35,722 nucleotides of DNA from Pseudomonadota bacterium (lineage in GTDB: Bacteria > Desulfobacterota > Desulfobulbia > Desulfobulbales > Desulfocapsaceae): assembly GCA_018820855.1 (NCBI GenBank), contig JAHJNL010000073.1:1-35722 (forward strand), written 5' to 3'. The translations under genes and the position numbers were made by a program. Below the pieces are notes generated by a model. It searched no databases. It had not been told where the DNA came from and saw only the letters and a program-made list of their open reading frames with translations. Shown here one piece after another: positions 6,956 to 31,339 of this stretch; the first letter of the stretch is position 1, and each line of letters opens with the position of its first letter.

Positions 6956-8884
6956 TCATATACCGCGTTCCTCTAAACACTCTTTTGCAACTTTTTCAGC
7001 AAATGCATCAATGGTCATATCTGCTATATTCTTTCCATCGCGTAGTCGAAGGGTAACAGTTTGATTTTCTTTTTCTTTGTCACCGATGATAAGCATGTAT
7101 GGAATCTTGGCCATCTGCGCTTCTCTGATTTTATAGTTCAATTTTTCATTGCGCAAATCTTTTTCAATACGGACACCAGCTTTACGGAGACGTGTATAGA
7201 TCTCTTCACAATAGTCAGCCTGGGCATCAGTAATGTTGAGAATTCTGGCCTGAACCGGGGCGAACCAGAGTGGGAAAACACCGCCGTAATGTTCTATTAA
7301 CACACCAATAAAACGTTCCAGCGATCCCATGAGAGCGCGATGAATCATAATGGGCTGGTGTTCCTGATTGTCGTTACCAGTATAACTGACTTTAAAGCGT
7401 TCAGGAAGATTGAAGTCAACCTGAATGGTGGAGCACTGCCAGGAGCGGCCCAGAAGATCTTTGATTTTGATATCGATCTTCGGTCCGTAGAAAACGCCTT
7501 CTCCGGGATCAAGAGAATATTTCAGGCCTTTTTTCTCCAAGGCAACCTTCAGGGCCTCAGTGGATTGTTCCCAATTAACATCAGAGCCAACATATTTATC
7601 CGGTCTGGTGGAGAGATAGATATCGTATTGATCAAAGCCGAATGTCTTGAGGATGTGAAGGTTGAGATCAAGGATGTTGAAAATCTCATCTTCGAGTTGT
7701 TCAGGCATACAGAATATGTGGGCATCGTCCTGAGTGAATCCACGTACGCGAAGCAGTCCATGCAGGGCGCCGGCACGTTCATAACGGTAGACTGTACCCA
7801 ACTCACACCAGCGTATGGGGAATTCCCGATAACTTCTTTTGCGGCTGTTATAGATACCGATATGAAAAGGACAGTTCATCGGTTTGAGTTGATACTGCAC
7901 CTCATCGATGTCCATTGGCGCGTACATGTTCTCGGAATAAAAATCGAGATGTCCGGACGTCTTCCACAGATCCTGGCGGGCAATGTGAGGGGTGTAGAGC
8001 AGTTCGTAATCGTGACGATAGTGTTCTTCTTTCCAGTAATCTTCAATGAGCCTGCGGAGCAGTGCACCTTTTGGCTGCCACAGGATCAGACCGGGGCCGA
8101 TTTCATCTTGAATGGTGAAGAGTTCGAGTTCTTTTCCAAGTTTTCGATGGTCTCGTTTTTTTGCCTCTTCCAGGGCGTCGAGATGCTTTTTCAGCGCTTT
8201 TTTATCAAAGAAGGCCGTCCCGTAGATACGCTGGAGCATATCGTTTTTTTCGTTTCCCCTCCAGTAGGCACCGGCAACTCGCAGGAGTTTGAAGGCCTTG
8301 ACCCAGGAGGTGTCGGGAAGATGGGGACCGCGGCAGAGATCGGTGAAATTACCCTGCTGATAGATGGAGACTGTATCCACATCAAGATCGCGGATGAGTT
8401 CAATCTTGTATTTTTCCCCTTCTGCTTCGTAGCGTTTGATGGCTTCCGCACTCTTGATTTCGCTACGGGTAAAGGGTTCGGCCTTGTCGATAATTTCAAC
8501 CATTTTTGCTTCGATCTTATCGAAATCCTCGGGAGTAAATGGTTCACCCCGATCGAAGTCATAATAAAAGCCATCTTCAATGGAAGGACCGATTGCAACC
8601 TTCACATCTGCCCCAAACAGTTCGCGAACAGCCTCAGCCATGATATGGGCTGTGGAATGACGCAGGATTTCCAAGGCTTCAGGGGTGTCGATCTGTATGA
8701 AGCTCAGACTCGCATTGTTGGTGAGCGGAGTAGAGAGATCCACTGGGCTGCCGTCAAGTCGAGCTGCAACTGTCTTCTTCCGCTGTTTGTTTGACAACAG
8801 TTCGGACAGGGCTTCTTTGATGGTAGTCGCTACCGGTATGGACACGGTTTTGCCGTCGTCTAGTGTGATCTGAATATCAGTCAT
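6956..8884 (-). CDS. thrS: Threonine--tRNA ligase
   Basis: The 642-residue product (from the ATG at 8884) matches the usual ThrRS length. It has an N-terminal TGS domain (MTDIQITLDDGKTVSIP to LSFIQIDTPEA) and the second additional (editing) domain with HSTAHIMAEAV and the CRGPHLPDTS zone. The class II catalytic core shows the zinc ligands (MNCPFHIGIY, HRALMGSLERFIGVLIEHYGG). The C-terminal anticodon-binding domain begins near FPLWFAPVQARIL. A TTG two codons upstream is also possible; I prefer ATG. No strong Shine-Dalgarno is visible. A conserved hairpin element lies in the leader. It heads the thrS-infC-rpmI-rplT-pheST-ihfA series. Confidence 0.97.
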   Translation of the reverse strand: MTDIQITLDDGKTVSIPVATTIKEALSELLSNKQRKKTVAARLDGSPVDLSTPLTNNASLSFIQIDTPEALEILRHSTAHIMAEAVRELFGADVKVAIGPSIEDGFYYDFDRGEPFTPEDFDKIEAKMVEIIDKAEPFTRSEIKSAEAIKRYEAEGEKYKIELIRDLDVDTVSIYQQGNFTDLCRGPHLPDTSWVKAFKLLRVAGAYWRGNEKNDMLQRIYGTAFFDKKALKKHLDALEEAKKRDHRKLGKELELFTIQDEIGPGLILWQPKGALLRRLIEDYWKEEHYRHDYELLYTPHIARQDLWKTSGHLDFYSENMYAPMDIDEVQYQLKPMNCPFHIGIYNSRKRSYREFPIRWCELGTVYRYERAGALHGLLRVRGFTQDDAHIFCMPEQLEDEIFNILDLNLHILKTFGFDQYDIYLSTRPDKYVGSDVNWEQSTEALKVALEKKGLKYSLDPGEGVFYGPKIDIKIKDLLGRSWQCSTIQVDFNLPERFKVSYTGNDNQEHQPIMIHRALMGSLERFIGVLIEHYGGVFPLWFAPVQARILNITDAQADYCEEIYTRLRKAGVRIEKDLRNEKLNYKIREAQMAKIPYMLIIGDKEKENQTVTLRLRDGKNIADMTIDAFAEKVAKECLEERGI

Positions 8885-8921
8885 CTGCAAAGTCTATAGT
8901 ATAGTGTTCGCCCAGGAATGC

Positions 8922-9010
8922 GGATTTTGTCAGAAATCAAGGTATGGGGGGAAATTTACCGCAGGCATCGAAGAGATAATCCGAGGATAAAATTTTTCCC
9001 ATTACTCAGA
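8922..9010 (-). promoter_or_regulatory. Conserved leader hairpin element, copy 1 (upstream of thrS)
   Basis: On the minus strand the sequence holds AATTTTATCCTCGGA (8994-8980), a 10-nt spacer, then GATGCCTGCGGTAAA (8969-8955). Thirteen nt later comes CTTGATTTCTGAC. The same two 15-mers, the same 10-nt and 13-nt spacings and the same trailing motif recur at 30897-30985 in front of another gene. The element folds as one long hairpin (8946-9000). The outer stem is GGGAAAATTT with AAATTTCCC (small bulges), the middle stem is CCTCGG with CCTGCGG, and the upper stem is TATC/GATG around a 5-nt loop. It ends about 70 nt before the thrS start, in the sense orientation. Its identity is unknown. Confidence 0.65.
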
Positions 9011-9054
9011 GATCAGACATAACGATCATTTCTGGATGGGTACTAGAAAAGCAA

Positions 9055-9111: not shown

Positions 9112-9186
9112 TGGTAGGCACGGGCGGTTTCGAACCGCCGACTTCTACCATGTCAAGGTAGCGCTCTCCCACTGAGCTACGCGCCT
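9112..9186 (-). tRNA. tRNA-Val(GAC)
   Basis: The minus strand gives a full cloverleaf. The acceptor is AGGCGCG/CGTGCCT, the D-arm AGCTCAGTGGGAGAGC and the anticodon stem CTACC/GGTAG, with loop TTGACAT giving anticodon GAC. The T-arm is GGCGGTTCGAAACCGCC. CCA is encoded at 9112-9114. Confidence 0.95.
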
Positions 9187-12252: not shown

Positions 12253-12354
12253 GATAGCCGGGCACCCCTGTTGCACACCAAGGGGGTCATTACCGTTGCT
12301 TCCTCCCGGACCTGGCGGAGTTCATGATCCTTAGTTGCACAGGACCCGACTATC
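12253..12354 (-). ncRNA. ffs: Signal recognition particle 4.5S RNA
   Basis: The minus strand contains the diagnostic SRP domain IV: CAGGTCCGGGAGGAAGCAACGGTAA (only partially quoted here as CCGGGAGGAAGCA). The closing stem GATAG/CTATC and the inner GGGTCC/GGTGCCC helices form one long hairpin of 102 nt. A run of seven T follows a few bases after the 3' end (ATCTTTTTTT), giving a terminator. This RNA binds Ffh and targets membrane proteins co-translationally. It lies just upstream of dnaX, a common neighbour. Confidence 0.93.
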
Positions 12355-30823: not shown

Positions 30824-31042
30824 ACAATGAAATGGAGTATTATTGTTTCTGCACAGTTGAGGCCACCTTACAAAATTGCCTTTTCGCCCAAACTCTTCGT
30901 TATGAAATAAATTTTATCCTCGGAATATCAGATAGATGCCTGCGGTAAAATTTATCTCAGGCCTCGATTTTGAACGAAAATTCTAATTTTTCAAGGTACC
31001 CTTGAATGAATAACTAAAAATCATAACACGAGGAGAATACGT
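30712..31042 (+). other. Leader region of the CBM48-like gene
   Basis: No intact gene was found. It contains the tail of the remnant described above (to 30823), the second copy of the conserved hairpin element (30897-30985), and the GAGGAG ribosome-binding site at 31030-31035. Nothing else was recognised. Confidence 0.5.
30897..30985 (+). promoter_or_regulatory. Conserved leader hairpin element, copy 2 (upstream of the CBM48-like gene)
   Basis: The plus strand holds AATTTTATCCTCGGA (30910-30924), a 10-nt spacer, GATGCCTGCGGTAAA (30935-30949), and 13 nt later CTCGATTTTGAAC. Spacings are identical to copy 1 near thrS. The outer stem here is ATAAATTTTA (30907-30916) with TAAAATTTAT (30946-30955), perfectly paired yet different in sequence from copy 1. 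It lies 93 nt upstream of the start codon of the next gene and in its sense direction. Confidence 0.65.
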
Positions 31043-31339
31043 ATGTTGAAAAAAAACTACCTAAAAAAAGGCAAAACTTGTCGGGTTACCTTTAAGTATA
31101 GCAACGAAGAAAATTCTAAGACCGCTGTGCTGGTAGGTGACTTCAACGACTGGAATATGGAGACCTGTCCTATGAAGCGTCTTAAGGACGGTAGCTTTTC
31201 GGTAACCGTTGCTCTTGAAGCAGGGCAGAATTATCGTTTTCGCTATGTGATGGATGGCAATATATGGGTTAACGAGCACGATGCCGACAGCTATATTGCC
31301 AATGCATACGGCGGTGATGATTCCATTGTCAGCGTGTAA
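31043..31339 (+). CDS. Stand-alone glycogen-binding (CBM48/isoamylase-N-like) domain protein
   Basis: The 98-residue protein is a single immunoglobulin-like early-set domain: VTFKYSNEENSKTAVLVGDFNDW, then MKRLKDGSFSVTVALEAGQNYRFRYVMDGN and W(V)NEHDADSY. The GDFNDW and YRFRYxxDGxxW motifs are hallmarks of the carbohydrate-binding domain of glycogen branching enzyme, isoamylase and AMPK-beta. No catalytic domain is attached. The probable role is binding glycogen or another protein on glycogen; this is inference. It has a strong GAGGAG site. It is preceded by the conserved leader hairpin. Confidence 0.85.
   Translation: MLKKNYLKKGKTCRVTFKYSNEENSKTAVLVGDFNDWNMETCPMKRLKDGSFSVTVALEAGQNYRFRYVMDGNIWVNEHDADSYIANAYGGDDSIVSV

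Follow-up and report, generated by a model that had tools for sequence, protein, structure and literature searches.

Bacterial MITEs such as Correia, RUP and Chunjie of Geobacter are small, AT-rich and intergenic, bear terminal inverted repeats (TIRs), target duplications and IS-like ends and have hairpin transcripts on record (PMC10969869; PMC3049150). MITEs are also described from Thiomargarita (PMC4853749), which were considered by description, not by sequence. The BOX elements of streptococci are structured repeats and, in the same source, those of S. suis place boxA/boxC or boxE/boxF ends around the same boxB modules (PMC3049150). The element described here is like the MITEs in size, composition, intergenic placing, TIRs, target duplications and IS-like ends, and like BOX in being a structured repeat.

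The window, by which we mean the whole stretch of 35,722 nt that was analysed, contains two copies of this element. We consider it very probable that they are diverged members of a large non-autonomous transposon family, MITE-like and about 141 bp long, which folds as a hairpin from end to end; its fold would be kept by selection, and IS transposases would move it in trans. Multicopy dispersal, TIRs, target duplications and an empty site in a relative all bear on this. So do the several end types, which differ in duplication length while sharing a homologous interior, and two of which resemble the ends of IS elements from different transposase families.

Two copies in the window and others in the source genome

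Copy 1 (8904..9043) lies between tRNA-Val(GAC) (9112..9186, minus strand; ARAGORN, Rfam tRNA) and thrS, the threonyl-tRNA synthetase gene (6956..8884, minus strand, ATG at 8884; Pfam tRNA-synt_2b, HGTP_anticodon and tRNA_SAD). It has type B-like ends, GTGTTCGCCCAGGAATG and GTACCCATCCAGAAATG, and is matched by the covariance model over its full length at 92.5 bits in cmsearch, the genome's own copies being part of the model. Its better-folding strand is the plus strand, antisense to thrS, at -44.7 kcal/mol against -32.6 for the opposite strand. An imperfect target-site duplication is read from the sequence on the minus strand, as TTTTCTA on the thrS-distal side (9044..9050) and TATACTA on the thrS-proximal side (8897..8903). 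Copy 2 (30861..31001) has type A ends, GGGTACCTTG.. and GGCCACCTTA.., scores 155.1 bits with a model that includes it, and is 98% identical to the typed consensus (L021). Here the minus strand folds better (-48.3 against -32.1 kcal/mol), and the flanking sequence holds a 4-bp target-site duplication, TTGA, on the left (30857..30860) and right (31002..31005). Downstream is the gene for a CBM48-domain protein of 98 aa (31043..31339, plus strand; Pfam PF02922 and PF16561).

Much of what the sequence-only reading had reported of these copies stands. Its two 15-mers with an identical 10-nt spacer occur exactly twice each, at 8980-8994/8955-8969 on the minus strand and 30910-30924/30935-30949 on the plus strand; the third motif and the changes in the outer stems can be read in the sequence, and the flanking genes are, by Pfam, the thrS and CBM48 genes that it named. 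The repeat is real, but the extent of 8922-9010 that it had been given is too short, the element running from 8904 to 9043. In copy 1 the paired 15-mers make up the conserved core (8955..8994, minus strand), marked by conservation and covariation and comprising CC/GG, a GCA/GA internal loop and an AUAU stem. Allowing up to three mismatches, the first 15-mer alone is found twice, not above shuffles (33 of 100 reach 2), and the second five times, a count that none of 100 shuffles reaches; the composite pattern is found, at the same tolerance, at 13 places in the 4.82-Mb genome and nowhere in a reversed control. Its statement that no named motif has this signature holds as far as Rfam goes, with no match above gathering score. 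The scan of the window returned three tRNAs and an SRP RNA only, and no T-box or other family on the element, while that of six loci at E<=5 returned one tRNA and one HPnc0260 at 34.2 bits (gathering score 59). The small SRP RNA gene (Rfam RF00169) lies at 12253-12351 on the minus strand.

Among the copies in the source genome, similarity continues outside the hairpin core as far as the two ends, which are imperfect inverted repeats. Full copies fold back along their whole length of about 141 nt and are often bordered by direct duplications. A typed 145-nt consensus gives 42 matches in this genome at E<=10, 28 of which cover at least 117 of the 145 positions. Four contigs (C1, C74, C84 and C90) end within a copy, as expected for a repeat. 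The GC content of the element is 0.39, against 0.49 for the window, and 7 of 151 copies fall inside crude ORFs, with 27 at locus edges left unplaced. The folded strand is the more stable one in 29 of 30 source-genome copies, in 31 of 33 of a set made up of 29 copies from other genomes and four from the source genome, and in 18 of 20 copies of genome G033, the other two folding better on the opposite strand.

Element ends, target duplications and candidate transposases

End types were read from 29 places in relatives and from 93 places in named loci, the latter drawn from 168 matches by setting aside duplicates on the opposite strand and copies truncated at contig ends. Around a like interior are found the ends A GGGTACCTTGAAAAATTAG, B GTGTCCGTCCAGAAATGAG, C GAGCCTCTTGCAAAATGAG and D GAGTCTGTTGATTAATGAG, with E, F and G rarer. 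Duplication length tracks end type. An exact 4-bp duplication flanks 45 of 73 type A copies (shuffled mean 5.8) and 7 of 10 of type C (1.4); an exact 6-bp duplication flanks 20 of 44 of type B (1.3) and 8 of 12 of type D (1.1). Three of five type F copies have an exact duplication of 4 or 5 bp and none of five type E copies has an exact one, 15 further copies in this tally being untyped.

The end types are scattered over a tree of the interior, which implies at least 19 end-type changes; its starred branches alone force three changes for A, two for B, three for C, two for D and three for E. The tree has 105 rows, 12 of them untyped, and leaves 66 of 101 inner branches open, a low support that reflects its having only 101 columns. 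The interior may thus have changed ends repeatedly. In some longer copies (173-252 bp; L121 3511 and 5502, L161 6827, L144 6143) the GCA internal loop holds additional hairpins, similarly placed although the ends of these copies are of types B, F and D, which also hints at end exchange. A second palindrome of about 19 nt, GGTAAGCGYAGACTCCGA or close variants of it, lies within certain hairpin elements. Six of 20 G033 copies (L362, L364, L367, L373, L378 and L379) have it in the same position, and in other genomes it is found elsewhere in the element (L150 3794, L191 7270, L145 6740).

For type A, similar ends are found on an IS5-like element of the source genome with a broken transposase, the fragment of which has IS5 as its best model at 85.6 bits against a cut-off of 140. 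Type B ends resemble a 1.68-kb ISNCY element present in three copies in Desulfosarcina alkanivorans (447 bits, cut-off 325); one of its ends matches over 18 nt and the other over the first 11 nt only, and a duplication is clear in one of the three copies. A second, truncated IS5-like copy with the same left end is present at G000:C52 96500-98700 (L046). In the loci scanned for autonomous partners, the type A IS was recovered along with spacings taken as chance, and none was found for types other than A and B. DDE_Tnp_1 elements on contig C72 were considered as drivers and dropped, no element-like inverted ends being found on them.

The element accordingly has the features by which a MITE is recognised: TIRs, target-site duplication, the lack of an internal transposase alongside autonomous IS elements with like ends (of partial identity, IS5-like for A and ISNCY for B), and multicopy, AT-rich and mostly intergenic occurrence. 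Transposases of the IS5, ISNCY and other IS families would move it in trans through its ends; the likeness of the ends supports this for types A and B, and for the other end types it is presumed.

Distribution

A covariance model built from 25 copies of the source genome matches, at E<=1e-3, 48 of the 56 genomes taken as a sample around the window and, at E<=1e-6, 84 of 93 genomes of the family and 24 of 148 drawn from the phylum, the source genome being counted each time. In all, 350 genomes were searched, and cultured carriers include Desulfobulbus rhabdoformis and Desulfosarcina alkanivorans. The exact core pattern is found in at least 120 stretches in named genomes. Among the 80 matches listed, titles are mostly Desulfobulbaceae, Desulfocapsa, Desulfobacteraceae and Desulfosarcina; 'Deltaproteobacteria' is found in some, 'Proteobacteria' in two and Syntrophobacterales in one. 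The element was looked for on viruses, phages and plasmids without success: the exact core pattern had no match in viral contigs, nor a 110-nt consensus any blastn match in phages and plasmids. Head-to-tail pairs of elements a few bases apart are seen in G213:C1 (4214166/4214308, 1672071/1672216 and 3621873/3622012) and in G056:C1 (2296845/2297022).

Orientation relative to replication

In some genomes it is mostly the C-rich, lagging-type strand that bears the folded strand of the element, which leaves the weaker fold on the lagging-strand template. G033, a single contig, can be divided into two arms, at borders consistent with the GC skew as sampled, such that 57 of 59 copies have the orientation of their arm; the best of 30 shuffles reaches 42. 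By the nearest skew sample the figure is 55 of 59. In G056, 28 of 35 copies point in the same direction, and by the nearest skew sample 16 of 21, with 14 unclear; the two-arm fits of both these genomes were set after viewing the data. The source genome has 17 of 23 copies, a subset, in the same direction (p 0.035). For G024, 56 of 88 is obtained with arms taken from GC skew (p 0.014), a figure no better than shuffles when switch points are free (mean 55.4, best 62). Replication polarity is not universal, since G213 shows no orientation bias (55 of 100, p 0.37). All these p values assume independent copies, an assumption that does not hold. The counts cover 59 of 62 matches in G033, 88 of 94 in G024, 35 of 51 in G056 and 100 of 144 in G213; a further genome, G031, has 29 element matches.

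Polarity of this sort is itself already known from a review, in which several beta-clamp-binding IS families are described as biased in orientation (PMC5371812). By analogy, the polarity seen here could be set at insertion by contact between transposase and beta clamp and not by the hairpin, an explanation with that precedent behind it which we nonetheless regard as somewhat doubtful: the 20 G033 copies include three end types (A 7, B 10 and E 3), probably served by three transposases, yet have the same polarity relative to the interior. These 20 were picked by hand and include neither of the two orientation exceptions. It is the polarity common to three end types that is the unusual part. We favour instead a selected single-stranded fold: copies that present the strong hairpin on the lagging template would either be lost or never have inserted.

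Structure and covariation of the interior

The interior hairpin of about 100 nt is conserved in sequence and covaries. The structure alignment holds 105 elements, which remain of 137 of length 137-143 once those of at least 93% identity are removed, longer and partial copies being omitted. In these 105 non-redundant copies, standard pairs occupy 92% of paired cells, compared with 38-54% when partners are slid, and shuffled controls reach at most 78.5% in the interior and 68.8% in the ends. By MI-APC, 13 of the top 20 column pairs, among 9316, fall in the 35-pair structure. Another three are in the same helix register (2-140, 37-105 and 57-84), one is off by one column, and the remaining three link columns that distinguish end types. 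The compensatory stem changes first proposed from two copies are therefore upheld by the covariation in the multi-copy alignment.

The structure is also one-sided, in that one strand favours G-U over A-C. There are 351 G-U cells against 65 A-C, more than half of the excess coming from three columns with near-fixed U-G. Inferred changes from Watson-Crick pairs to G-U number 115 against 60 to A-C (p 4e-5; 64 against 34 in the interior alone), four pairs having been added to this count by hand.

Foldback DNA is prone to hairpin-templated correction, and a neutral MITE whose arms were kept complementary by quasipalindrome template switching would show covariation without function. The TIR pairs and interior pairs covary alike, as that explanation would have it. 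It seems unlikely all the same, because the mismatched GCA/GA loop and a bulged A are conserved and have gone uncorrected, and because an excess of changes to G-U over those to A-C is not predicted by a correction that is blind to strand. These points suggest that selection keeps the single-stranded fold, as RNA or ssDNA, of one strand. A bolder reading, which we put forward tentatively as not far short of an even chance, is that the interior stands on its own as a selected single-stranded structure (RNA or ssDNA) and has passed through the phylum on ends and transposases borrowed from several unrelated IS families, its one-sided fold dictating insertion or survival by fork direction.

The thrS site and its neighbours in relatives

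Comparison with relatives shows that the thrS copy was inserted, and that the site may lack it or hold a damaged one. In G011 (L094) the site upstream of thrS is empty, with flanks kept, and reads TATTCTA; G006 has a full but diverged copy there and G018 a copy without the core. Among 30 thrS loci, some with short upstream sequence, a copy directly upstream is found at E<=1 in L091 (the window), L093 and L115, and a shortened one, detected by alignment only, in L092 (G018). The L115 copy is bounded by its own TAACTA duplication. Upstream of thrS in L092 (G018) and L115 (G042), both ends are kept and the central stem is lost, which fits hairpin deletion.

The sequence-only reading had named first a structured cis-regulatory leader RNA, and offered as an alternative a mobile palindrome that had landed in leaders. 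In favour of the former, each window copy lies ahead of a gene, in an orientation common to the two, at 19 nt (thrS) and 41 nt (CBM48 gene) from the start codon, and covariation is strong. However, by the energies given above, both copies fold well on the antisense strand of the gene beside them and poorly on the sense strand, which tells against a sense leader. Nor is there a consistent sense orientation upstream of genes among 117 copies placed by crude ORFs, a count that omits the 27 copies at locus edges and seven inside ORFs and in which a few may be counted twice: the upstream gene is on the folded strand in 59 and the downstream gene in 66. The same copies lie in tandem (68), divergent (28) and convergent (21) contexts so that, on the test of orientation proposed at the outset, they occur both ways and in convergent gaps. 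A scan for promoter and terminator at copy 1 revealed neither. Fold strand, the survey of thrS loci, the empty and core-deleted sites and the absence of gene-orientation bias together lead us to reject a leader RNA specific to thrS, and leave one regulating thrS and the CBM48 gene in cis highly improbable. The mobile palindrome is the alternative that fits, and the thrS copy would have been inserted long ago, no part in regulation being apparent for it. A caution follows for these genomes, where covarying 'leader RNAs' can be transposon copies.

Comparison with known systems

REP and REPIN sequences are dispersed palindromes too, but REPs are far shorter and are not known to have target duplications. 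Unlike them, the present element is about 141 bp long with TIRs and target duplications, and so does not answer to the definition of REP/REPIN, a RAYT-mobilised short palindrome without target duplication. The candidate RNA Desulfotalea-1 presumably has a related host, to go by its name, the likeness extending to name and table row only. That row gives its RNA status as '?', cis-regulation as 'n' and distribution as Proteobacteria, and itself prints no Rfam accession (Weinberg 2010; PMC2864571). Compared by description only, BOX differs from the present family, which is mostly about 141 nt, not of modular size, and has unrelated hosts.

The MITE kind is known, and for different ends around a common module S. 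suis BOX offers partial precedent in the account cited (PMC3049150). In literature on MITEs, BOX and sulfate-reducing hosts, of partial coverage, no paper on this family was seen among the matches listed; nor, among them, was any family that is widespread and combines a covarying core with end types differing in duplication length and a replication-polar fold, Desulfotalea-1 being known by description only. As those MITEs are described, the present family differs in having one interior with several end types and duplication lengths, in occurring in many families of the phylum and in its covarying core. MITEs are usually viewed as IS remnants defined by their ends. Here it is the ends that vary and the interior that is conserved; the interior covaries in the manner of an RNA and, in some genomes, prefers one strand in relation to replication. 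The element thus provides a system for asking whether a nucleic-acid fold can itself be a selfish unit, and whether the strand asymmetry of a hairpin controls where mobile DNA survives.
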